The position numbers were made by a program, and so were the translations under genes. Of a stretch of DNA of 64,000 nt, positions 6,638-62,459 are shown piece by piece. Positions within the stretch are counted from its first letter, which is position 1. Each line of letters starts with the position of its first letter. The stretch is taken from positions 62,001 to 126,000 of the forward strand of contig NZ_AEWI01000037.1 of assembly GCF_000191885.1 (NCBI RefSeq), in the 5' to 3' direction. The notes beneath the pieces are model-generated. The model did no database searches, was not told where the DNA came from, and saw only the letters and a program-made list of their open reading frames with translations. Origin of the DNA: Anaerophaga thermohalophila DSM 12881 (GTDB lineage: Bacteria > Bacteroidota > Bacteroidia > Bacteroidales > Marinilabiliaceae).

Positions 6638-6641
6638 TTAT

Positions 6642-6807
6642 TCATCCGTATATAATTTATTTATTAAGGTCGGATGGAACTCGCATGAAAGATTTATCCA
6701 TATTCTTATTGTGGAAAACCTATCTATGTTCATTTCATCTTAAATCTTAAATCTTATATCTAAAAATCTGATAATCTATTAAGGCAATCTGTGTCATGCT
6801 CGTTTCA
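6642..6807 (-). repeat. Family B element, copy B1 (long form)
   Basis: Minus-strand orientation: starts TGAAACGAGCATGACA at 6807 and ends TATACGGATGA at 6642. It has the long-form middle (AGATTTAAGATTTAAGATG). It lies between divergent sufB and the ThiL-like gene and is not fused to either reading frame. Confidence 0.8.
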
Positions 6808-8024: not shown

Positions 8025-8084
8025 TGAAGTCGGAAGCTTAGTACAGAAGGCAGAATAGAAGGTGAAAGTTTCAGTTAATAAATC

Positions 8085-8137
8085 ATGAGCCCGGTCTAAA
8101 AAGCATCTTTGTTGCCAAACTTATTGTTGTTTCAAAT
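8085..8137 (+). repeat. Family A element, copy A2 (left half only)
   Basis: ATGAGCCCGGTCTAAAAAGC...TTTGTTGCCAAACTTATTGTTGTTT matches the left half of copy A1; the right half is missing. It lies 60-115 bases upstream of ruvA. Confidence 0.75.
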
Positions 8138-8199
8138 AATTGTCTTACAGCATATTGCAATAATTTAACGAACTATTGTCAAAACGATAAACTCAAATT

Positions 8200-27109: not shown

Positions 27110-27128
27110 GTTTCACTAAACATGCTTT

Positions 27129-27227
27129 TCATCAGTATAAAATAAGTCTAAGTTATTGGTCTGATGGAACTCGCATGCAAGAACTTATACATGTTCTTTT
27201 GTGACAAACCTTGTCATGCTCGTTTCA
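27129..27227 (-). repeat. Family B element, copy B2 (short form)
   Basis: Read on the minus strand it runs TGAAACGAGCATGACAAGG (from 27227) to TATACTGATGA (27129). It contains two consecutive perfect hairpins: TGACAA-GGT-TTGTCA and AAGAAC-loop-GTTCTT. It fills the gap between the convergent lpxA and pdxA; its TGA end is 10 bases from the pdxA stop. Confidence 0.85.
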
Positions 27228-27236
27228 TTTGATCTT

Positions 27237-28306: not shown

Positions 28307-28346
28307 GATGGTTAGATTTTTAGATTTAAGATTTATGCCCGTTTCA
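28307..28346 (-). repeat. Family B fragment B9
   Basis: GATTTTTAGATTTAAGATTT followed by GCCCGTTTCA matches the inner and TGAAAC-end parts of family B. The terminal TGA (28344-28346, minus strand) is the stop codon of the small gene at 28344-28718. Confidence 0.6.
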
Positions 28347-28718
28347 TCTTCCTGAACGTCGAAAAAAATCGCGCATTAATACTTTTCTGAGTTCCCGATG
28401 AATGATCAGCTCCGTGACAAGAGAATCGAAAGGAACTTCAGGCACCTGTATCTGATAGCTTTCGATGTCTGAAATATCCACATCGATTCGGTAAAGCAAA
28501 TTAAGAAATTTTTCTGTTTTTTCTGTAAGCAGGTAAGCCACATGCTGTTGCATTTGCACAAAAAGCTCCTGGTAAAAATCGTGAATATTACCGGAAAAAC
28601 TGATGGCTAAATCGAACTCTGTAAAGTCCTTGATAATTTGTTGGGCTGTTTCGCGTATCAGGTCTTCCCGTTTTGAAGCTTTTCTCAGATCGTCTTCAGA
28701 AAATGAAGGAAGATTCAT
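28344..28718 (-). CDS. Small conserved-looking protein of unknown function
   Basis: I do not recognise this 124-aa protein. It is predicted soluble, helical and acidic in the middle (YLLTEKTEKFLNLLYRIDVD) with a basic C-terminus (RELRKVLMRDFFRRSGR). Its ATG overlaps the stop of the DUF4837 gene by four bases (ATGA), so translation is probably coupled and the product may act with that lipoprotein or in its regulation. Its own stop TGA is supplied by the edge of a family B fragment. Codon use looks like its neighbours; the ORF is long for chance given the overlap. Confidence 0.75.
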   Translation of the reverse strand: MNLPSFSEDDLRKASKREDLIRETAQQIIKDFTEFDLAISFSGNIHDFYQELFVQMQQHVAYLLTEKTEKFLNLLYRIDVDISDIESYQIQVPEVPFDSLVTELIIHRELRKVLMRDFFRRSGR

Positions 28719-33025: not shown

Positions 33026-33049
33026 ATTCCTTTATTAGATAGTATTATA

Positions 33050-33110
33050 ATTGACACCGTCCTAAAACGCATCTTTGTTGCCAAAAATATGCTTTTTATA
33101 CCACACTCAT
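33050..33110 (+). repeat. Family A element, copy A3 (interior deleted)
   Basis: ATTGACACCGTCCTAAAACG...TTTGTTGCC is joined directly to AAAAATATGCTTTTTATACC...ACTCAT: both terminal inverted repeats without the interior, 61 bp. It lies between dxr and rseP. Confidence 0.8.
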
Positions 33111-33199
33111 AATTGCTTCAAAACATATAACAACAGGGTTAAAAATCCACCTTCTTCAGATTTAAAATACTGAAAGCGTCACAAATATATTGTTTTTCT

Positions 33200-34354
33200 T
33201 TATTTTTTGACTAAATCAGCAGCTAATGCTCTGGCCTCCCTATCGGATTCCAGATAATCTGAAAAGCCGGGCTTCTCTACATAAGTTGCTTTTAACATAG
33301 TTTGTTCAATGATGTTTGACATTTGCACGAACCCGATTCTCGAAGCCAGAAAAGCCTCTACGACCACTTCGTTGGCAGCATTTAAAACACAGGGCATATT
33401 TCCACCTTTACACATAGCTTCAAATGCAAGCGAGAGGTTTCGGAAAACATTCACATCCGCTTTTTCAAATGTAAGGGTTGGGTAATCGGAAAAATTAAAT
33501 CGTGGAAATCTATTCGCTAAACGTTCCGGATAGCCAAGTGCATATTGTATTGGTAGTCGCATATCAGGCAATCCCATCTGTGCCTTAATCGATCCATCCT
33601 CAAATTGTACCATCGAATGAACGATGGATTGAGGATGTACGACAATCTCAATCTGTGTGGGTTGTACGTCAAAAAGCCATTTAGCCTCAATGGCTTCAAA
33701 TCCTTTGTTCATTAAAGAGGCTGAATCGATGGTAATTTTGTCACCCATTTTCCAGTTTGGGTGATTCAGTGCCTGGCACCGGGTAACTTTCCTTAAAAAT
33801 TCAGTATCTCTGCCCCTGAATGGACCTCCTGAGGCAGTGAGTATTATTTTTTCGACAGATCGTTTATTTTCTCCCTCAAGACACTGAAATATTGCTGAAT
33901 GCTCTGAATCAACGGGTAAAACCGGAACATTCCTTTTTTGCGCCAGTTCCATTATCAAATCTCCTGCTACTACCAGTGTTTCTTTATTTGCCAGAGCAAC
34001 AGGTTTGCCAGCTTCTATGGCTTTAATGGTTGGAAGCAGGCCGGAGAATCCCACTAATGCCACCAAAACCATATCCACGGTACTCATTGCCCCTACCTGA
34101 GCCAGAGCATCACTGCCGGTATAAACTTTTACCGGCAAGTCTGATAATTGATTACGAACCCACTGATATTTGCTTTGATCGACGATCACCACGGCATTAG
34201 GGAGGTACTTCCTCGCCTGTTCAGTTAAAAGTTCGGCATTTTTCGCGGCCGTCAGCACTTCGACCTCGAAAAGACCGGTATGCTGGTCTATTACCTCAAG
34301 CGCCTGTGTCCCTATAGACCCAGTAGAACCAAGAATCGCGATACGTCGTTTCAT
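33200..34354 (-). CDS. dxr: 1-deoxy-D-xylulose 5-phosphate reductoisomerase
   Basis: Second enzyme of the MEP isoprenoid pathway, converting DXP to MEP with NADPH. With the start at MKRRIAILGSTGSIGTQALE (34352-34354) it is 384 aa, the usual length; a longer frame to 34417 would translate a family B repeat. Motifs: NADPH-binding GSTGSIG, catalytic VLPVDSEHSAIFQC, LTASGGPF, the substrate loop NHPNWKMGDKITIDSASLMN and HPQSIVHSMVQFEDGS. Its ATG is part of repeat B3 (TATACTGATGAA). Upstream is the M23 peptidase gene. Confidence 0.97.
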   Translation of the reverse strand: MKRRIAILGSTGSIGTQALEVIDQHTGLFEVEVLTAAKNAELLTEQARKYLPNAVVIVDQSKYQWVRNQLSDLPVKVYTGSDALAQVGAMSTVDMVLVALVGFSGLLPTIKAIEAGKPVALANKETLVVAGDLIMELAQKRNVPVLPVDSEHSAIFQCLEGENKRSVEKIILTASGGPFRGRDTEFLRKVTRCQALNHPNWKMGDKITIDSASLMNKGFEAIEAKWLFDVQPTQIEIVVHPQSIVHSMVQFEDGSIKAQMGLPDMRLPIQYALGYPERLANRFPRFNFSDYPTLTFEKADVNVFRNLSLAFEAMCKGGNMPCVLNAANEVVVEAFLASRIGFVQMSNIIEQTMLKATYVEKPGFSDYLESDREARALAADLVKK

Positions 34355-34416
34355 CAGTATAAAATTTGTTTTTAAAGTCGAATGTAACTCATCCCGATTA
34401 CTCGGGACTGGTTTCA
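34351..34416 (-). repeat. Family B element, copy B3 (mini form)
   Basis: Minus strand: TGAAACCAG, perfect hairpin TCCCGA-GTAA-TCGGGA (34392-34407), GAGTTACATTCGAC, A/T-rich stretch, TATACTGATGA. The last ATG is the dxr start codon. The hairpin has no sequence in common with the hairpins of the longer B copies but occupies the same place. Confidence 0.8.
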
Positions 34417-35951: not shown

Positions 35952-36088
35952 ATTGAGTGCCGTATACTTTGTCAAAATCAAGGCGTTTTAAATTTTTGTA
36001 CCGGAGTTAACTTATTGTTAATGAAGATGCAAAAATTTAAAACAACAACGAGATTGGCATCAAAGATGCTTTTTAGACCGGCCTCAAT
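35952..36088 (-). repeat. Family A element, copy A4 (inverted)
   Basis: Full element in reverse orientation: starts ATTGAGTGCCGTATACTTTG and ends TGCTTTTTAGACCGGCCTCAAT. The inner part (GGAGTTAACTTATTGTTAAT) closely follows copy A1 reversed. It lies between the tRNA terminator and the gamma-glutamyltransferase gene. Confidence 0.85.
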
Positions 36089-36375
36089 ATTCAGTATATC
36101 AAGATCATCTTATATCTAACTGTAAATCCAACGACCTGTTAACATAACTCACTAATAATAAAAGTATTACTATGCGTCCTGGCTTCATTTTAACGAACTA
36201 TTGATCCTTAATTTAGCAGGGGAATTCTCTTTCAATAAACCATGCGATTTTAGTATCTGCAAAAGGCACCTTATGAACCAAAAAATAGATTACACTATTG
36301 ATTTACATATTTGTTTTTCTTACATTGCAAGAGAAATTAAGAAAACCAGCTTTAAGCATTACACAATAAATTAAA
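36089..36375. other. Upstream region of the GGT-family gene
   Basis: A family B-like fragment (about 36108-36135) is the only structure I can support. TTTTAACGAACTATTG at 36187-36202 is also present upstream of ruvA (8165-8178). No clear TAnnTTTG box precedes the gene. Confidence 0.4.
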
Positions 36376-38073: not shown

Positions 38074-38262
38074 TATATGAGTCTACTCCTAAAACCTGAG
38101 TTTCTTTTGCCAATCACATTGTTGCAGACTCATGCAAATATCTGCCAAAATCGAAAACGATAACATGTTAAATTATCACTATTAAAAAGCTATTCGTCAA
38201 AAGATTTTGGATTAATCTCAGTAAAAGTATTTTTTTGAAGCACGAATTTTTTTTTGAAGGTA
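38074..38262. other. Gap between GGT-family gene and repeat B4
   Basis: No ORF, terminator or promoter box that I can support. Confidence 0.4.
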
Positions 38263-38358
38263 TGAAACGAGCATGACAAAGATTGTCTCAAAAGAACATG
38301 TATAAATCCTTGCATGCGAGTTCCATCCGACCTTAATAAATAAATTTTATACGGATGA
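38263..38358 (+). repeat. Family B element, copy B4 (short form)
   Basis: Plus strand: TGAAACGAGCATGACAAAGA, hairpin GACAA-AGA-TTGTC, then GCATGCGAGTTCCATCCGAC, A/T-rich stretch and TTTTATACGGATGA. The terminal ATG (38355-38357) is the histidine kinase start codon. Orientation agrees with the gene. Confidence 0.85.
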
Positions 38359-39845
38359 ATATTAGAGCCAGAATTGTGAAATTTTTACCCTCCCGCAGGA
38401 AATTCAGTTGCTCAGGAAATCCATCCGGGTTTTTTGCAAGCAAAGATGCTACCGAGTTAATTCGTTCGTTAAATTTTGACATACCTGAATCAAAAATCAT
38501 TTCATCGATTGACACCCTTGCACTCAAAATATCAAAAACCAGCCAGGCCGAATATATATTGATAGCACGGTTAACCCCGGAACAAAAATTCCAGGTTGAA
38601 GCATTTACGCATGGTGACAAAATTGATCAGCAAAAAAAATCGCTGCAGTTTGAAACAAAACTACTGAGCGCTTTACTGGAAAATAATACTGCTCACAGCA
38701 ATGATCCCGCTGAAATTTTGTCACCGATCGGAACCACAAAACATAGTGCTAAATCGGTAACAGCCATGTTACTCAAAAACAATGAGGGCATTTCCATAGG
38801 AGCAATTTTTGTTTTCTCGCAGAAAAAACACCCGACGCTAACCACCATTAACTCTCTTCAGTTTTTTTCTTTCTTTGCAGCCTCCGAGTTAAGGCATCTC
38901 ATCAACAAAGAAAAACTGGAAAAGAAAAACAAGGAGCTTTTAAGAACCGAAGAAGAACTAAAACTTAAGAACCAACTGCTGGACAACCTAAACCAGAACA
39001 TTTCGAAAGCCAAACAGGTTGTTGACGAAAGCAGCCGGTTGCAATCGGCTTTTCTGGCCAATCTCAGTCATGAGATACGAACACCGATGAATGTAATTAT
39101 GGGGTTTACCGAATTGCTGAGTGCCGAAAACATGTCGGCGGAACAGCGTTGTCATTACATCGACATAATCCAGCAAAACGGCACACGCCTTTTGCACATC
39201 ATGGACTCTTTAATCGATATTTCACGTTTTCAGGCCAAAAATACCGGAAAAGAACAGGAAGCCTTCTCACTCAACCATATCATGAAGCAGCTTCATAACA
39301 ACTATCTTTCGGAAATCACTATAACAGGGAAACCGCTGAATCTGAAAATCACCCTTGGAGCGCCCGACGGGAAAGACATTGTATCACTTGATAAAGAAGC
39401 TACCTATAAAGTACTGAATCACCTTCTGGATAATGCCGTGAAATTCACTGCATCAGGATATGTTCATTTCGGCTATGAAATGCGGGAAAAACATATTCTT
39501 TTCTTTGTAAAGGACAGCGGAACAGGTATCCCGGAAGGAAAAGAAAATGTAATATTTGATCTCTTCAGACAGGGAGATTTGCGTCTGAGCCGTCAGTTTG
39601 GAGGAACAGGCCTCGGACTGGCCATTGCCAAACGTTACGTTAGTGCCATGAACGGTCAGATATGGTGCCACAACAATGAAAACGAAAGATGTGGCGCTAC
39701 CTTCAAATTCACTCTTCCATACCATCCTGAAATCAAAAAAGAACCCATTTCTGATGATAAGTACCAGGGAAAAAGAGGAAACAGCGGCAGCATTCGACAG
39801 CTCCAGTCTTCAGCATCATCATCCAAACCAGAAAAACAACAATAA
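38355..39845 (+). CDS. Soluble sensor histidine kinase, GAF-like input
   Basis: A 496-aa orphan kinase. Residues about 30-175 look like a GAF-type sensor (KISKTSQAEYILIARLTPEQ, GAIFVFSQKKHPTLTTINSL); about 180-215 is a coiled coil (KEKLEKKNKELLRTEEELK); the HisKA H-box is FLANLSHEIRTPMNVIMGF with His 239; the ATPase has N-box VLNHLLDNAVKF, G1 DSGTGIPEG, F-box IFDLFRQGD and G2 GGTGLGLAIAKRY. No transmembrane segment and no attached receiver. The start codon lies in repeat B4, so the extreme N-terminus could be longer or shorter in relatives. Nearest response regulators are porX (42004) and the sigma-54 type regulator (46598). Confidence 0.92.
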   Translation: MNIRARIVKFLPSRRKFSCSGNPSGFFASKDATELIRSLNFDIPESKIISSIDTLALKISKTSQAEYILIARLTPEQKFQVEAFTHGDKIDQQKKSLQFETKLLSALLENNTAHSNDPAEILSPIGTTKHSAKSVTAMLLKNNEGISIGAIFVFSQKKHPTLTTINSLQFFSFFAASELRHLINKEKLEKKNKELLRTEEELKLKNQLLDNLNQNISKAKQVVDESSRLQSAFLANLSHEIRTPMNVIMGFTELLSAENMSAEQRCHYIDIIQQNGTRLLHIMDSLIDISRFQAKNTGKEQEAFSLNHIMKQLHNNYLSEITITGKPLNLKITLGAPDGKDIVSLDKEATYKVLNHLLDNAVKFTASGYVHFGYEMREKHILFFVKDSGTGIPEGKENVIFDLFRQGDLRLSRQFGGTGLGLAIAKRYVSAMNGQIWCHNNENERCGATFKFTLPYHPEIKKEPISDDKYQGKRGNSGSIRQLQSSASSSKPEKQQ

Positions 39846-41089: not shown

Positions 41090-41136
41090 ACGATAAATCG
41101 TTAGATACGAATTTTAAATGTGTTACGAAATAATTT

Positions 41137-41285
41137 ATGAGACTGGTATAAAAATCATCTTTGTTACCAATCCCATTGTTGTTTTCAATTTTTGAAACCT
41201 CACTAACAACAATGAGTTAACGCCGGTAAAAAAATTTAAAACGCCATGATTTTGAAAAAAATATGCTTTTTATACCGTACTCAAT
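41137..41285 (+). repeat. Family A element, copy A5
   Basis: Starts ATGAGACTGGTATAAAAATC and ends ATGCTTTTTATACCGTACTCAAT; interior CAACAATGAGTTAACGCCGG follows copy A1. It lies 48 bases upstream of the ald ATG. Confidence 0.85.
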
Positions 41286-41500
41286 CATACAGCATATTAA
41301 TAAAACCAAATACAGTAACCAAAAAAACAAATCATTCAAAATATTCACAAGACAGGGACGCAGATGCAACCTGTCGATGCAGCCGGAATTTTATAGAACA
41401 ACCGTGTACATGAAATTTTCTGCGGTCAAGTTACAAAAAAATATATCGAGTTCCGAAATTTTGAAGCATGGAAATGAAGACCGTAGCAGATGTATATAGC
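41286..41500. other. Remainder of the ald-tsaE gap
   Basis: With A5 this is a 411-base gene-free stretch. A short open frame begins inside the repeat end and is Lys/Asn-rich without family resemblance; I do not call it. No terminator or promoter box is evident. Confidence 0.5.
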
Positions 41501-43594: not shown

Positions 43595-46381
43595 TTATCT
43601 GTTTCTTTCGGTATAGGAATGTTCGGGAATTTCACTTTCATTTATGATAACGGCCGAAGGATCACTCCCCTGCAAATATTTCTCCAAAAAGAATGCTTTG
43701 TAATCTTCGACATCAGTAGCATTCTCTATTTTTTGCCGGTTATCTTCGGATATAATCACTACAAGTGGTTCCTTAACATTGTTCACATTGAAAACAGAAG
43801 GCTGATTGATCAACGAAAAGAAATAGTCGAGTCCCGTTCGTTTATTGGCAAACGGTCCTGTTTCCAAAACTGAGAGCGCAGGCGACAACTGCGACGTTTC
43901 AAGCTGGAGACCCCCTGTTGCGAAATGGTCAAAATTGAAATTGGCCAACTGAAACATAAGCTCGTTAATATCTGTCTCATTATCAAGAACAATCATCAAA
44001 TAATGGGTTGTATCCGGTGCTTCCGTAAATTTTCCTGAGGCCAATTTCTCCGAAGTGGCTGTCTCTGTTGTCTGGGCGGATGAAACACTGCTCCGGAGTG
44101 ACGATGCAAGATCAATTTTTCCGGGCAATTGACCTTCATTGAGTTGTTGAAGCCAATATCCGGCTACTTCAGCCTGGGTAGTGCGTGGAAAATCATCCAC
44201 AATTTGTTGCAGATATTCCCTGAACAATTGTGCTCTGTTAAGCTGACTATAAGCAAATGCATTCAGCAAGGAAGCCTGTGGAAGCAATGGTTCATAATGT
44301 TGCCTGAATATTGGCTCCGTTGCCTTCAAAACGGCATTCCATTCACCATTTTTAAAATGATTGTAAGCACCGGTATAAATCTGCTCCATCTCATGCTCAG
44401 ATTCACCCAGCTTTTCGAAATAATCAGGATCATTGACAAACTGTGCAAAACGGCTGTCGGGGTAATCATCTGTGATAACTTCACCGTAATGCTGAATGCA
44501 TTTTTGATCGTTCAATTCGCGGCAAGCGAGGTAAATTCCCATAAGAGTCTGCTCTCTGTAGGGTGTTTCAGGATATTGAGCCAGAAGCTCTTCATAAAAA
44601 GTCACCGCCTCGGAATATTTTTTAAAATTATTGGCCAATATATTTCCTGCACTGAAGAGCGATTTCTGTATTTTCTGGTGAGACACGGCCTTTTCTTCAG
44701 AGGTAAGCGGAAGCCCGGAAATAAGACTTTCCCGGGTTGGTGTCCCGGTTTGAATCGTTTCTTCTGCTGACGGTGTATCTTTACCCGGTCGGGCCTGACT
44801 ATCAGCAAAAGGATCGCCAGGCATCATACGATCATTTCCGTCATCCTGTTGTTCCTGAGCTTGTTTATTGGAACGCCGCCAGTTATCTTCCAACTTGCGT
44901 CTTCCCCAGCGTTTTTCAAATTCCATTTGACCGAGACTGACCATGGTTTGGTTATAGAAATACCAATTCCCCGATTCATCCGTTTCCCTGTTACCACGGT
45001 TGGCAAAATTACGATAAAAGAAGGCGTCGTCGGTGGTATCGATAAACCCGCTCTCTTCCTCTTTCTGCTGCATTTGAGCAAGCAAATTATCAATAAAGAT
45101 GTTTCTCTCTTCTTCGGGCAGTTCCGCTATTCTCAGGACGCTGTCTTCATATTCAATGGTTCGGAGACTTTGAGCGAGCGGTTCCAACCGTTTTTTTATC
45201 TTTTCAACCTCAGAAATATCATTATAGTCTGACGGAAGAGATGCTAATGTAGAATCGTAGTAGGCTTCAGCGGCAATATAGTCGCCGGATTCAAAATAGA
45301 CATCGGCCATTCGCTTATAGATGTTCCCGGCCAGGATACGGTTGCGGCCTCCGTACCCTGCAGCCAGTTCCAAATTGGTTAACGCCATCAGGGTATCGCC
45401 CTCCTGGAACCATGTTTCTGCGATAGCGTAATAAATTTGATCGCGATAATCAAGGTTTTTAAATTCTTTCGCATATTTTTCCAGTTTATTTCTGGCTTTT
45501 TGAGGATTATCCGGCCTGCCCTCCAGCAGGGCCTGCTCTATCATAGCATGAATGGTGATTTCATAATCGGGTTTTAACCTTATGACCCGGGTAAAGGCTT
45601 CGAGCGCCATATTTTCTCTTCCGGTTCTTTGTGCCAGCTGCCCCAGCACAAAGTGCCAGCGTATTTTTTCCCACCGGTCGCCCGTGTTCTCTGCTGCTTT
45701 GAAACAATAATCAATAGCTTTATCATACTTTCCCTGAGCCAACCAATACCAGGCATAGGTAGATTGCTCCAGCACGAAATACTTTTTTTCATCGCCAATT
45801 TCGGATGAATATTGCTGTAAAATCCGGGAAGCATTCTCAAACTCATCCATTTCTATATAAGCTCTTGCCATCCACAGCAAGGCTTCAAACCGTGTATCCT
45901 TTTCCGGAAAAATTTGCAGCACCATATCAAAAGCACTGATCGCCTCATACCATTCCTGAGAATAAATATGGGCTTTCCCTATCAGCATCCAGGCATCATC
46001 GACCCAACGGTTGAATTCGCGCTGATTATAAAAATCGCGATAATCCACTGAGCCTCCTGAAGGTTCTCGCCGGGGTTTTGCAGTGATGGAATGTTTTTCG
46101 ATCAGTTTATGTCCTTTTCGAATGGCTCTGTTCATCTGTGATGCAGGCACCTGTCCGCCAGCTGCCTTGCAATAAGCAAACACAGGCAACACAACTGTAT
46201 AGTCGTTCTTTACCGTCTCACGCATTCTTTCGCGGCCTTCTTCGAAACTCTGAACACCATTGAAAAGAATATTGTATCTTGCGGTAAGATTATGGTATCC
46301 CCTCGATAACCAGGTATTCTTCTGCACAGAACAACCCCAGAAGGCAAACAAAATAAGAATATATGTCAGGTATTTCTTCAT
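43595..46381 (-). CDS. porW: PorW/SprE, T9SS TPR lipoprotein
   Basis: A 928-aa lipoprotein: the signal ends in YILILFAFWGC with Cys 17, so it is lipid-anchored in the envelope. Tetratricopeptide repeats fill the first 400 residues (YEAISAFDMVLQIFPEKDTR, NMALEAFTRVIRLKPDYEIT) and return after a disordered, acidic segment near 500-560 (PEERNIFIDNLLAQM; FEKRWGRRKLEDNWRRSNK). This architecture matches SprE/PorW, needed for type IX secretion and gliding. The start codon is supplied by repeat B5 (TATACGGATGAA). A possible promoter (TATCTTTG, 46571-46578, minus) lies 190 bases upstream. Confidence 0.94.
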   Translation of the reverse strand: MKKYLTYILILFAFWGCSVQKNTWLSRGYHNLTARYNILFNGVQSFEEGRERMRETVKNDYTVVLPVFAYCKAAGGQVPASQMNRAIRKGHKLIEKHSITAKPRREPSGGSVDYRDFYNQREFNRWVDDAWMLIGKAHIYSQEWYEAISAFDMVLQIFPEKDTRFEALLWMARAYIEMDEFENASRILQQYSSEIGDEKKYFVLEQSTYAWYWLAQGKYDKAIDYCFKAAENTGDRWEKIRWHFVLGQLAQRTGRENMALEAFTRVIRLKPDYEITIHAMIEQALLEGRPDNPQKARNKLEKYAKEFKNLDYRDQIYYAIAETWFQEGDTLMALTNLELAAGYGGRNRILAGNIYKRMADVYFESGDYIAAEAYYDSTLASLPSDYNDISEVEKIKKRLEPLAQSLRTIEYEDSVLRIAELPEEERNIFIDNLLAQMQQKEEESGFIDTTDDAFFYRNFANRGNRETDESGNWYFYNQTMVSLGQMEFEKRWGRRKLEDNWRRSNKQAQEQQDDGNDRMMPGDPFADSQARPGKDTPSAEETIQTGTPTRESLISGLPLTSEEKAVSHQKIQKSLFSAGNILANNFKKYSEAVTFYEELLAQYPETPYREQTLMGIYLACRELNDQKCIQHYGEVITDDYPDSRFAQFVNDPDYFEKLGESEHEMEQIYTGAYNHFKNGEWNAVLKATEPIFRQHYEPLLPQASLLNAFAYSQLNRAQLFREYLQQIVDDFPRTTQAEVAGYWLQQLNEGQLPGKIDLASSLRSSVSSAQTTETATSEKLASGKFTEAPDTTHYLMIVLDNETDINELMFQLANFNFDHFATGGLQLETSQLSPALSVLETGPFANKRTGLDYFFSLINQPSVFNVNNVKEPLVVIISEDNRQKIENATDVEDYKAFFLEKYLQGSDPSAVIINESEIPEHSYTERNR

Positions 46382-46443
46382 CCGTATAAAATTTATTTAT
46401 TATGGTCGGATGGAACTCGTCCCGGGTAATCGCGACTCGTTTC
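46378..46443 (-). repeat. Family B element, copy B5 (mini form)
   Basis: Minus strand: GAAACGAGTC, imperfect hairpin (GTC-G-CG/CG-G-GAC), GAGTTCCATCCGACC, ATAATAAATAAATTTTATAC, GGATGA. Its ATG is the porW start codon. Confidence 0.8.
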
Positions 46444-49419: not shown

Positions 49420-49442
49420 TGGTTTATTTGAGTCAGATTTAT

Positions 49443-49605
49443 TCATCAGTATATAATTTACTTAAGTTATTGGTCGAATAGAACTCGCATGTAAGAATTT
49501 ATACTTGACTTTATTGAGGTAAACCCCGTCATTCTTGTTTCATCTTAAATCTTATATCTAAAAATCTAATAATCTGTTAAGGCAAACTTTGCCATGCTCG
49601 TTTCA
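49443..49605 (-). repeat. Family B element, copy B6 (long form)
   Basis: Minus strand: TGAAACGAGCATGGCAAAGT, hairpin GGCAA-AGT-TTGCC, AGATTTAAGATGAAACAAG (second, degenerate copy of the end), then CATGCGAGTTCTATTCGACC and TATATACTGATGA. Its first TGA (49603-49605) is the stop codon of the alkyltransferase-like gene. Confidence 0.85.
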
Positions 49606-49956
49606 TGAGTTTTCGTGATGAGATAAATCTATCACCTCAGGTGCCCAAAAAACTTTCTGAAAATCCATCACTTTGTCGTTTTTTACTCTAACCCCCTCAC
49701 TTTCAAGCAATTCCTGCATTGTATTCGCATTAGGAAAGGCATGTTTTCCGGTAAGCATACCATTGCGGTTGACGACTCTGTGAGCAGGTAAATACCCGGT
49801 GTGCGAAAAAGCTTTATTCATAGCCCATCCCACCATCCGTGCAGCACCCGGCGAACCAATGGCGGCAGCCACAGCACCATAAGTGGTAACACGGCCGGCA
49901 GGTATTAGCTTCACTACCCCGTAAACCCGTGAAAAAAAATCATTGTTTTCAGACAT
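49603..49956 (-). CDS. Alkyltransferase-like (ATL) DNA repair protein
   Basis: A 117-aa relative of the C-terminal domain of O6-alkylguanine-DNA alkyltransferase. The active-site PCHRV reads PAHRV (YLPAHRVVNRNGMLTGK), so the alkyl-accepting Cys is replaced by Ala. Such ATL proteins bind O6-alkylguanine and recruit nucleotide excision repair rather than reversing damage. VYGVVKLIPAGRVTTYGAVA and AARMVGWAMNKA are the DNA-binding motifs. It ends exactly at repeat B6, which supplies the TGA. It is 9 bases downstream of trmB. Confidence 0.93.
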   Translation of the reverse strand: MSENNDFFSRVYGVVKLIPAGRVTTYGAVAAAIGSPGAARMVGWAMNKAFSHTGYLPAHRVVNRNGMLTGKHAFPNANTMQELLESEGVRVKNDKVMDFQKVFWAPEVIDLSHHENS

Positions 49957-55806: not shown

Positions 55807-55968
55807 TGAAACGAGTATGACAAGGATTTCTATAGTAGATTTTTAGATATAGGATATTAAGATTTAAGATGAAATGAATATGAAAGGTTTGCCTCAATAA
55901 AGATGTGAATAAAATCAATCATGCGAGTTCCACCAGAGCAATAACTTAGACTAATTTAATACGGATGA
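55807..55968 (+). repeat. Family B element, copy B7 (long form)
   Basis: Plus strand: TGAAACGAGTATGACAAGGA, AGATTTAAGATGAAATGAAT, CATGCGAGTTCCACCAGAGC, ATACGGATGA. It begins five bases after the stop codon of the 55332 gene and is oriented with it. Confidence 0.8.
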
Positions 55969-56001
55969 AAAAATAATAGCGATAGCAAGTTTCAAAAAAA
56001 T

Positions 56002-56143: not shown

Positions 56144-57001
56144 TCAATCACCTATTTCGGCGCTCATTGGATGTTTAAGTCCTTTGGCTTCAACGAAAAC
56201 AGCCTTCACCGACCCCACAAGAATTTTAGCTTCAACGATAATGGGAATGCGACTGTCATCGTCCGTCACCCAAACAGTCATATCCTCTCCCTCTTCAAAA
56301 ATTGTCCCTTCGACAAGCAATGGTGAGAACTTTAAACACCTGAATTTCCTGCCGCTTCGGTCTTTAATAACTTCCTTCCCCCGGTATCTAATATACAAAT
56401 CGTAAACTTCACCGTCAACGATCAACTTTATGGGTATTTTCTCATTGATCTCATATTTGGAAAAATCGATATTTCTGGCCTGATAGACCATAGACAATAA
56501 GTCGTAGGAACACTCGGGCCATGTAAAAGTAGTATCGCGGTACGGACGTTCTCTCTTACTTATAGAAGCTCTGACAACCCGTTCATCCTGGTCGAACAGA
56601 TAATGAAAATGAGCCTTATAGGAGCCTTCATTGGTTTTGCGATGAAATTCCAGCGGCTGAAGAGAATGAGGATCCACCCAGACCTCAAAGCTGTCACGCA
56701 CTTTAAAAAGCAGATCATAGGCCTTATAGGTAGACCCATAAGCTTTCATGTGCCACGTCGGTTTCCCTTCCCAAATATCTTTTTCCACGCCAAAAGTGAC
56801 AATCCCTGCATTAATCCAGATAAATCCCCAGTTGTAATACGCATGATAGGTAACTTCCTCGCCGGGTGCAAAAACCTTTCGGTTAGCATAACACTGACCT
56901 TCGGCCTGAAACGCTGCTCCCCGGCAAAAAAAGACCAACAAAAACAAAAAGGATAACAGTAATCTGTGTGACAAAGCAAAAGCATTTTCGAAGTATTTCA
57001 T
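56144..57001 (-). CDS. DUF3108 domain-containing exported protein
   Basis: A 285-aa protein with a signal peptide (LLLSFLFLLVFFCRGAAFQA). The body matches DUF3108: VFAPGEEVTYHAYYNWGFIW, VDPHSLQPLEFHRKTNEGSY, SYDLLSMVYQARNIDFSKYE and a C-terminal EDMTVWVTDDDSRIPIIVEA. It is probably periplasmic or surface exposed; no established role. Its ATG comes from repeat B8, which fills the whole gap to the upstream COG0011 gene. Confidence 0.88.
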   Translation of the reverse strand: MKYFENAFALSHRLLLSFLFLLVFFCRGAAFQAEGQCYANRKVFAPGEEVTYHAYYNWGFIWINAGIVTFGVEKDIWEGKPTWHMKAYGSTYKAYDLLFKVRDSFEVWVDPHSLQPLEFHRKTNEGSYKAHFHYLFDQDERVVRASISKRERPYRDTTFTWPECSYDLLSMVYQARNIDFSKYEINEKIPIKLIVDGEVYDLYIRYRGKEVIKDRSGRKFRCLKFSPLLVEGTIFEEGEDMTVWVTDDDSRIPIIVEAKILVGSVKAVFVEAKGLKHPMSAEIGD

Positions 57002-57164
57002 CCATATAAAATTAGTCTAAGTTATTGGCCTATGGAACTCGTATGATTGAGATTTATACATGTTCTTTAGTGACAAACCTTGTCATGTTCGTTTCATTTC
57101 ATCTTAAATCTGATATCTAAAAATCTGATAATCTATTGTGGCAATCTTTGTCATGTTCGTTTCA
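56998..57164 (-). repeat. Family B element, copy B8 (long form) spanning stop to start
   Basis: Minus strand: TGAAACGAACATGACAAAG (TGA 57162-57164 is the COG0011 stop codon), AGATTTTTAGATATCAG, a second TGAAACGAACATGACAAGG with hairpin TGACAA-GGT-TTGTCA, CATACGAGTTCCATAGGCC, TATATGGATGA (ATG 56999-57001 is the DUF3108 start). The repeat is the entire intergenic region. Confidence 0.88.
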
Positions 57165-57473
57165 TGTATTTACCTTTCCTATTTTGCTCTCTACAGATTT
57201 AATTTTGCCATCCATCCTGCCAACCGATCCTTTCCTGGCATCAATATTAATGGTAGAATAAATACGATCGGCTACAGGTTCCAGAATTTTGTAAGCTCCA
57301 TTAACAATGGCAAGTGCTTCTTCCATGCTTTCGGTCTCAATGGTGGTACCCATCGGATTAAGCCGATAAGGGACGCCGCTATCGCGCACATATTCCAGAA
57401 CTTTACTGACATACTGACTTACGCTTGCGCCTTTGTCTGTCGGAAACATTGCAAAATTCAACAAAATTGACAT
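57162..57473 (-). CDS. Thiamine-binding YkoF/MTH1187-like protein (COG0011)
   Basis: A 103-aa cytoplasmic protein of the COG0011 (MTH1187/YkoF) family; members bind thiamine or small ligands as tetramers. Sequence features: NFAMFPTDKGASVSQYVSKV, SGVPYRLNPMGTTIETESME near residue 40, and KGSVGRMDGKIKSVESKIGK. It starts three bases after the stop of the Ig-like lipoprotein gene and is followed, through repeat B8, by the DUF3108 gene. The TGA stop belongs to the repeat. Link to the ThiL-like gene is by family name only. Confidence 0.9.
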   Translation of the reverse strand: MSILLNFAMFPTDKGASVSQYVSKVLEYVRDSGVPYRLNPMGTTIETESMEEALAIVNGAYKILEPVADRIYSTINIDARKGSVGRMDGKIKSVESKIGKVNT

Positions 57474-61679: not shown

Positions 61680-62291
61680 TTATGAACGCTTCAATATTCC
61701 ATAGAATAAAATGTTCAGAATATTGTCGAGTTGCAACCTGAAATCGTCAAAATTTTCTACTCCCCTGAACAAAGGCATTTCCAGGCCGCGCAGAGCCGTA
61801 CTGATGCCGATGGCAGCAAGTTTTAGATTTTTAATATCGAACTCTCCCGATGTGACTCCTTCTTCCATAATGGTCTTCAGCATTTCCTGTTCGGCCTTTT
61901 CCGAATTCTCCCTTACCTCCTCAAAAAAATAGTAATCGCCATAAGTTTCATCACGCATGGCCTTTTGATAATTTTCCAACTCCCGCAAAGTTTCCATTCT
62001 GATAACTACATAGTCATGAAATTTCTGACGGGGTTTATAATTGCTGTTAACCACATCGCGAAGCCGGGTTTCAAGTAGTTCAGCCTCAAGTTCGATGACA
62101 GCCTGAAATATCTCTTCTTTATTCCTGAAATAATAATAAAGAGAGCTCTTCCCTTTCCTCAGAGTAAGTGCAATATCCTCCATTGTGGTTTTGCGATACC
62201 CGTATTTAGCAAAAAGATCCCGGGCCGATTTAAGAATCGAATTCCGGACAGTGTCTTGTTCCAATACAAATGAATTAAAGATGTTGCTCAT
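61680..62291 (-). CDS. TetR/AcrR family transcriptional regulator
   Basis: A 203-aa regulator: N-terminal HTH (ILKSARDLFAKYGYRKTTME, DIALTLRKGKSSLYYYFRNK) at residues 15-65, then an all-helical ligand domain ending NILNILFYGILKRS. Ligand and targets unknown; metA is the nearest gene but faces the same direction 107 bases downstream. The 62319-62447 tandem array lies 28 bases upstream of its ATG, where its promoter should be, so slippage in the array could change expression. Confidence 0.93.
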   Translation of the reverse strand: MSNIFNSFVLEQDTVRNSILKSARDLFAKYGYRKTTMEDIALTLRKGKSSLYYYFRNKEEIFQAVIELEAELLETRLRDVVNSNYKPRQKFHDYVVIRMETLRELENYQKAMRDETYGDYYFFEEVRENSEKAEQEMLKTIMEEGVTSGEFDIKNLKLAAIGISTALRGLEMPLFRGVENFDDFRLQLDNILNILFYGILKRS

Positions 62292-62318
62292 AATATTAAA
62301 CTTAAGGTTACAGGATAG

Positions 62319-62447
62319 ACGTCAGGCTGTTAGGCTGTTAGGTTATTAGGTTATTAGGTTATTAGGCTATTAGGCTATTAGGTTATTAGGTTATTAGGTT
62401 ATTAGGCTATTAGGTTGTTAGGTTGTTAGGTTGTTAAATTGTTAGAT
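62319..62447. repeat. 8-nt tandem repeat (GTTATTAG / GCTATTAG)
   Basis: About 16 copies of an 8-nt unit (GGTTATTA and variants GGCTATTA, GGTTGTTA) between the TetR ATG (62291) and the RNase R stop (62460). Related to the TTAGATTG array at 159-290, which likewise abuts a start codon. Confidence 0.9.
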
Positions 62448-62459
62448 TTTGCCTTAAAA

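Follow-up and report, generated by a model that had tools for sequence, protein, structure and literature searches.

Insertion sequences of the IS200/IS605 family have no terminal inverted repeats. They carry subterminal hairpins, with a conserved tetranucleotide flanking the left end and a tetranucleotide finishing the right end, as described in PMC6006769 and PMC8266576. In Bacteroidetes, the TnpA-REP genes of subclass 2.6 are described as flanked by 'atypical secondary structures' that are copied elsewhere in the genome (PMC6006769). Other short repeats include the minisatellite-bearing miniature inverted-repeat transposable element (MITE) of Porphyromonas gingivalis (PMC4596501) and the TAACTGA direct repeats of Beggiatoaceae, which are genome-wide, 7 nucleotides long, placed mostly just upstream of start codons in one orientation, and proposed to be regulator-binding sites (PMC4679880). 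Here we analyze a repeat, family B, in a 64,000-nucleotide stretch (the window) of Anaerophaga thermohalophila DSM 12881, positions 62001–126000 of contig NZ_AEWI01000037.1 in a 4.32-Mb draft genome of 211 contigs. Family B is very probably a non-autonomous miniature mobile element of the Marinilabiliaceae, with two hairpins and an ATGA(A) target. The genomes compared are the sister genome, A. thermohalophila str. Valhall, and those of Thermophagus xiamenensis DSM 19012, Marinilabilia rubra WTE16 and Marinilabilia salmonicolor MSL42.

Like the IS200/IS605 family, family B is free of terminal inverted repeats, has hairpins at both ends, and carries fixed short sequences at its borders, a target beside the left end and a tetranucleotide closing the right end. 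Unlike that family, it has no linked Y1 gene, shows the same ATGA(A) at both flanks, places its right-end ATG within the right hairpin (hairpin B), and showed no strand bias. With the REP, REPIN and BIME repeats of TnpA-REP (RAYT) systems it shares high copy number, small size, mostly intergenic placement, hairpin-based structure and frequent tandem arrangement, whereas its core consensus is without the GT[AG]G at the hairpin foot that belongs to the definition in PMC6006769. MITEs, including the P. gingivalis example (PMC4596501), which also comes from Bacteroidota, resemble it in being short, non-autonomous and flanked by a duplicated target; however, they are named for inverted repeats. In an alignment of 62 family B copies from eight genomes (A1), the left end ATGAAACGAGCATG does not match the reverse complement of the right end TTCATCNGTATAAAAT, and a MITE with terminal inverted repeats is therefore rejected. 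Like the TAACTGA repeats, family B is genome-wide and often found at gene starts, but it supplies the start codon itself, is ~50–220 nucleotides long, and has empty sites that show insertion. What is new in family B are ATGA ends that spare start and stop codons, swaps of whole hairpins, and an enzyme not found; it is kin to the hairpin-based miniature elements.

A profile of the 102-nucleotide core, built from copies across the genome, recovers all eight copies listed by the first-pass annotation, essentially where it had placed them (matches at 6641–6807, 27128–27228, 34350–34391, 38262–38359, 46377–46419, 49442–49606, 55869–55969 and 56997–57165), with the ends as it had described them, (A)TGAAAC on the left and ATAC(G/T)GATGA on the right. 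For the copies at 34350 (a weak match, E 0.009) and 46377 the profile covers only the right part, both being of the compact form. The copies, and the codons of the focal one, are:

56997–57165, minus strand: focal copy, left extension 57098–57165 plus core 56997–57097, spanning all of the interval between the COG0011 stop and the DUF3108 start (profile)
57162–57164, minus strand: left-end TGA of the focal copy, stop codon of the COG0011/Thiamine_BP gene at 57162–57473 (gene calls, Pfam)
56999–57001, minus strand: right-end ATG of the focal copy, start codon of the DUF3108 gene at 56144–57001 (gene calls, Pfam)
38262–38359, plus strand: core copy, whose ATG at 38355–38357 starts a histidine kinase (profile, Pfam, clean empty site in Valhall)
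34350–34416, minus strand: compact copy, whose ATG at 34352–34354 starts dxr (profile, Pfam, relatives)
46377–46443, minus strand: compact copy, whose ATG at 46379–46381 starts the gene called porW earlier (profile)
49442–49606, minus strand: left extension plus core, whose TGA at 49603–49605 ends the ATL (DNA_binding_1) gene (profile, Pfam)
55807–55969, plus strand: left extension plus core (55869–55969), intergenic (profile)
27128–27228, minus strand: core copy between two convergent genes (profile)
6641–6807, minus strand: left extension 6739–6807 plus core 6641–6738, intergenic (profile)

The right-end ATG is indeed the called start of dxr (34354), the kinase (38355), porW (46381) and the DUF3108 gene (57001); Pfam confirms dxr, the kinase and DUF3108, and in the gene named porW finds nothing but TPR repeats. 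The left-end TGA had been read as the stop codon of three genes. It is the stop of two of them, ATL (49603) and COG0011 (57162); the small gene at 28344 (no Pfam match) ends in a fragment only. This left-end fragment (28332–28349, GTTTCAT on the plus strand), within which the small gene (28344–28718) ends, lies in a gap that is longer in Valhall. Three of the eight copies (6641, 27128 and 55869) lie at neither a start nor a stop codon. The pattern is real, strong and genome-wide: with up to one mismatch allowed, the genome contains 651 matches to the left end TGAAACGAGCATGRCAA and 557 to the right end AATTTTATACKGATGA, against none for the reversed-pattern controls of both ends.

Evidence for movement comes from Valhall, one contig of which is collinear with the window contig, most pieces having 85–95% identity (typically ~91%). 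At three clean empty sites, ATGAA stands once in Valhall and flanks the element on both sides here. At window 38262, Valhall reads AAGGT-ATGAA-TCTTAT and the window AAGGT-ATGAA-ACGAG...ATACGG-ATGAA-TATTAG, and the Valhall match of the kinase starts at the same ATG. At 56997 the empty site reads TAC-ATGAAA-CAG, and at L054:12384-12482 Valhall reads TTCTG-ATGAAA-TGTTCC where the element here lies between two ATGAAA. Fifteen alignment gaps of at most 3 kb on the window contig hold a copy here, of which, counted by eye, 11 are empty of copies in Valhall and 4 are occupied (one of these, at porW, by a weak match); two further gaps hold a copy in Valhall only. In addition, head-to-tail units have a single ATGAAAC in common, as expected if one unit inserted into the ATGA end of an older copy. 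We regard it as very likely that family B is a mobile element that inserts at ATGA(A) and has ATGA(A) on both sides afterward; it has inserted since these two close relatives split. Weighing on the other side, the clean empty sites number only three, and at 49442 and 55869, where Valhall also has no copy, the flanks are altered. At 6641 and 27128 the copy is likewise missing from Valhall, within longer gaps that do not align. The three clean sites fit a target duplication, although one of the two flanking copies of ATGA may be carried by the element; in some copies the left and right ends vary independently, which decay could also explain.

The focal copy, as the first-pass annotation had noted, fills the whole gap (56998–57164) from the stop codon of the COG0011 gene, encoding a thiamine-binding protein, to the start codon of the DUF3108 gene. 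In Valhall, M. rubra and M. salmonicolor the same stop and start overlap as ATGA, with no element, and in Thermophagus the two genes do not overlap. Among 38 named loci with a DUF3108 relative, 35 have both genes in order, and eight of these show the element-free ATGA overlap, including all seven Anaerophaga- or Marinilabilia-like loci (L208 and L210–L215; L215 is titled Bacillota, yet its protein is 70% identical). The element thus entered a pre-existing four-base overlap, with TGA left before it and ATG after it.

The copy at L054:12384-12482 lies antisense within an EcoO109I-type restriction endonuclease gene that is broken here and intact in Valhall, where the open reading frame of 252 amino acids matches type II restriction endonuclease EcoO109I (PF14511, E 1.7e-91). 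The copy is located at codons 20–21, the frame stops after 25 codons, and the next 120 codons beyond the element are open. The target is therefore not the gene junction. Placement was surveyed in 864 kb (7 pieces, the window together with another 800 kb), in which a simple caller yields 648 genes and 196 unit hits chain into 130 composite elements. None of the 130 composites lies inside a called gene, which undercounts gene damage because the caller split the broken L054 gene in two and scored its site as intergenic; in the relatives, the caller counted one right end inside a gene (M. salmonicolor).

In this sample, 91 of 104 right ends hold ATGA at the expected spot (13 were dropped), and 90 of the 91 continue as ATGAA; 73 of 93 left ends hold TGAAAC (20 were dropped), preceded by A in 56 of the 73. 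The insertion site is best written ATGAA. An ATGA start codon or stop/start overlap, when hit, has its flanks separated, with a TGA stop before the element and an ATG start after it, so both neighbors survive. Insertions within genes break them and would mostly be lost, giving rise to the apparent gene-junction pattern.

The alignment supports a fold of two adjacent hairpins, which would jointly span one ATGA to the next. The base of hairpin A is AAC-GA...GA-GTT, and hairpin B is CCATYNG...CNRATG. In A1, 95.9% of the cells of hairpin B (CCATCNG...CNGATG) are paired, and its two variable pairs show double changes in 13 and 22 sequences; for a small left hairpin (columns 13–18 with 34–39) the paired share is 85.1%, and one pair has 19 double changes. 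Together they exceed 500 of 500 shuffles in cells paired, cells doubly changed and covariation score. Both arms of hairpin B could be located in 111 right ends of this genome; all three variable positions pair in 64 of them, compared with a mean of 39 and a maximum of 55 in 2000 shuffles of the partners. RNAalifold adds the hairpin A base AAC...GTT and the pairing GCAT...ATGC. The base pairs of hairpin A barely vary, so covariation is little informative; stronger evidence for hairpin A is that this base is retained while the stem is exchanged for other hairpins. Two observations count against the fold: two of the five measures (pairs with a double change and pair types) do not exceed the shuffles, and typed consensus forms folded as single-strand DNA (four folds) are no stabler than shuffled sequences (z −0.7 to −1.3). 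The inner pairs of hairpin A (columns 15–16 with 70–71) fail in 30 and 41 of 61 sequences, and a candidate pseudoknot, GTATAA/TTATAC, is 91.8% paired with few double changes, and a slide of two columns still pairs 79.7%. We note that CATGRC (A1 columns 13–18, 34–39 and 70–76) can pair locally, in the left hairpin, or with a distant GYCATG, in hairpin A; mostly in Thermophagus copies, its variable base changes in step with both partners, and alternative folds are possible.

The exchanged stems take several forms. Compact forms of ~66–72 nucleotides (four among 44 right-part hits, plus the dxr copy) keep the AAC...GTT base and have a GTCCCGA...TCGGGAC-like hairpin in place of hairpin A, a Marinilabilia form has a long A/T-rich stem in the same position, a 52-nucleotide form has almost no hairpin A, and a 216-nucleotide form (11 examples) has both family B ends around a different body. 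This last form (L049:3598-3813 and ten similar places) carries a CCTCAGAATGACA...TGTCATTCTGAGCGGAGCGAAGAATCT hairpin-like body; similar sequences occur in other bacteria. A 142-nucleotide Marinilabilia form trails another unit head to tail in five of five cases (L197:13019, L198:4320, L198:10304, L199:11205 and L199:18988).

Within the family, the exact 16-mer left end ATGAAACGAGCATGRC occurs in 11 of 71 genomes and in none of the other 60, and its reverse, used as a control, occurs in none of the 71. The counts are 395 in this genome, 91 in Valhall, 212 in Thermophagus, 77, 29, 18, 8 and 5 in five genomes of Marinilabilia's genus, and 2, 1 and 1 in three others, so that family B is largely confined to Anaerophaga, Thermophagus and Marinilabilia among these genomes. 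With the whole focal copy as query, 16 of 61 genomes matched (E ≤0.01), several with a match limited to the low-complexity middle or to the right end. No description of family B was found in the literature searched, whose coverage was partial.

How the element moves is a more tentative matter. Copies could be mobilized in trans, in the form of folded single strands of DNA, by a Y1 HUH transposase (of IS200/IS605 or TnpA-REP type) cutting at ATGA, a step to which we give somewhat less than even confidence. In the core form, CAT precedes the left hairpin and also stands at the foot of hairpin B on its 5' side; both are candidate guides, which in the IS200/IS605 type would be complementary to the cleavage site. 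This genome has two Y1 matches. One is a full-length gene that adjoins a different repeat, GCCCCAAAGGGGC, with family B ~300 nucleotides off, on one side only and with another repeat between; the second lies inside a long methylase-like open reading frame. No Y1 locus examined, a subset of the Y1 matches, has family B ends on both sides, and one copy in genome G032 lies 27 nucleotides from a decayed Y1 fragment. In a further difference from the REP and REPIN systems, five RAYT-like genes (in Thermophagus, M. salmonicolor (two), G032 and Valhall) adjoin repeats other than family B. The 48 hits in the 864 kb that comprise a left end only have a right end 26–542 nucleotides away in 38 cases, 3–14 kb away in six, and none on the stretch in four; for ten of the 48, the downstream genes include no obvious transposase, as judged by eye from the first 100 residues, with no family search.

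Several points speak against the HUH step. Neither an autonomous copy nor a transposase with family B ends on both sides was found in the material examined. Genome G008 bears one exact left end and has no Y1 match, and the compact forms are without the left candidate guide CAT. There is also no replication-strand bias, with 54 against 50 copies relative to the local GC skew, in a test that omits the 26 copies at start codons described below (16 against 10) and is weak on a draft genome. As separate observations, the methylase-like frame (G000:C198:33034-36078, or L111:13034-16078, minus strand; read as restriction-methylase-like by eye) holds its Y1/RAYT-like domain in frame and has repeated QASSLSEN/QTSSLRN peptides, perhaps translated REP repeats, and in Valhall and M. 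salmonicolor Y1 matches occur in similarly long open frames.

The same evidence leaves real, if less than even, weight on a mobile element moved by another enzyme (a tyrosine or serine recombinase, an IS110-like enzyme, or reverse transcription) with a true target duplication of 4–5 base pairs. In favor of such an enzyme are the lack of family B ends on both sides of any Y1 locus examined and the lack of strand bias, and also that Y1 gene content does not track element number, Thermophagus having 212 exact left ends and one Y1 match and G008 one and none. Yet the lack of terminal inverted repeats, the hairpins at both ends and the fixed tetranucleotides fit the IS200/IS605 family as described in PMC6006769. 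An IS110-type gene is present in M. rubra, Thermophagus and G031 and in none of the other five of eight genomes, which include this one and Valhall, in a search that did not extend to tyrosine or serine recombinases or reverse transcriptases; a TnpB-type domain was found in none of the eight. It is a possibility, though rather an unlikely one, that family B represents a new kind of transposon, two-hairpin, inverted-repeat-free and with ATGA ends, which is moved by a new enzyme and enters operon overlaps harmlessly, and whose copies are then preferentially kept as leaders of genes to which they supply the start codon.

We turn to the preference for gene starts. The right-end ATG coincides exactly with the start called for the downstream gene in 26 of the 104 composites with a right end, compared with a chance of ~0.002 for a random intergenic position on the given strand; the dxr copy, below threshold in the 864-kb search, is not among the 26. 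Other same-strand starts within 14 nucleotides are single cases, at 9 and 14. The first-pass annotation would have been refuted by random placement relative to genes; placement is non-random, and the ATGAA target mainly explains it. The 864 kb contain 641 ATGAA sites that either are noncoding or coincide exactly with a start or stop codon; 114 (17.8%) of them are starts and 15 are TGA stops, so that the observed 25% is a small excess (P=0.04); with ATGAAA as the target, 17.1% would be expected (P=0.03). Left-end stops number two among 93 composites with a left end. The overlap with starts is mostly a matter of target sequence and of the survival of insertions: genes commonly begin with ATGAA and stop/start overlaps commonly read ATGA, which in the main accounts for copies at such codons. 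Two comparisons weigh against this account: a plain ATGA target gives an expectation of 12.0% and a larger excess (P=0.0002), and pooling with seven relatives (where called starts coincide with 15 of 47 non-tandem right ends and 7.8 would be expected, in stretches picked for good matches or collinearity with the window) gives 41 of 151 against 26.3 expected, ~1.5-fold (P=0.002). The remaining 1.5-fold excess may be preference, retention or a bias in start calling.

That pooled excess is what would favor insertion which itself prefers gene starts or stop/start overlaps beyond ATGAA, for example because the DNA there is open, single-stranded or untranslated, together with the 142-nucleotide form in one Marinilabilia genome, in which four of five aligned copies lie at a plausible start by eye (two of six by the caller, which counts non-tandem ends). 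We consider such a preference unlikely, since observed starts and stops are near the ATGAA expectation, the excess could also reflect selection acting on inserted copies or the way start codons are called, and insertion within a gene does occur (L054). The suggestion of the first-pass annotation that family B is an element inserting at TGA/ATG junctions is borne out as to insertion, by the clean empty sites, and not as to the junction as target, as 78 of 104 right ends lie away from called starts and the L054 copy is intragenic.

Its other suggestion, a genome-wide expression signal (leader, translation coupling or processing) placed by function, with hairpin B hiding and regulating the start codon, found little support and is very unlikely. 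Since the right-end ATG belongs to the 3' arm of hairpin B, the start codon could be hidden in the RNA, and this hairpin pairs the start codon and covaries. In this genome, Valhall and Thermophagus a copy occupies the start codon of dxr (34350), and two Marinilabilia have a plain ATGA start there; occupation in three genomes is compatible with a role as leader. The counts at starts, here and in the relatives, also lean this way, and the excess may leave room for some retention or site preference at gene starts. However, hairpin B is fully paired in 10 of 23 start copies against 40 of 66 other non-tandem copies (P=0.22), and most copy-holding gaps (11 of 15) are empty in Valhall. Among composites with right ends, 44 have both neighbors along the element and 19 both against it (P=0.002); when the 26 start-codon copies are removed the counts become 26 and 19 (P=0.37), and because the bias then loses significance the apparent agreement in orientation lies mainly in those copies. 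No Rfam match falls at a copy: the window has tRNA only, and three copy-rich stretches have, above the cut-off, three tRNAs and one TPP riboswitch. With most right ends off starts, no significant residual orientation bias and an intragenic copy that breaks a gene, we reject a gene-junction signal as the main account of the pattern. We also reject plasmid or phage carriage, as the plasmid and phage collections contain no family B match; in viral contigs the 16-mer occurs in 35 stretches, of which the profile (E ≤1) gives only partial left ends in two.

A mobile element with an ATGA target and ATGA ends can enter stop/start overlaps and many start codons with both frames usable, and since these spare reading frames a dense genome can carry hundreds of copies. 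Its copies look so much like a regulatory signal that one would be proposed from the sequence by itself. As family B is abundant in three genera, the sister strains offer a natural experiment on target choice and selection in repeat placement, and bear also on the effect of a foreign leader on genes such as dxr. The question raised is which enzyme moves a transposon with two-hairpin ends and ATGA.

The window also holds other repeats. Family A is distinct from family B and has terminal inverted repeats, TGAGNC.GGTATAAAAA...TTTTTATACCG.ACTCA. Its copies are:

292–448: family A copy
8076–8142: family A copy
33034–33115: family A copy
35968–36096: family A copy
41129–41289: family A copy

The copies at 41133–41285 and 35968–36096 are missing in Valhall, which has many similar copies of its own. 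Arrays of 7–8-nucleotide units (TTAGATTG, TTAGGTTA) occupy 157–298 and 62308–62459, and their TTAGAT-like sequence is also the middle of the left extension of family B.

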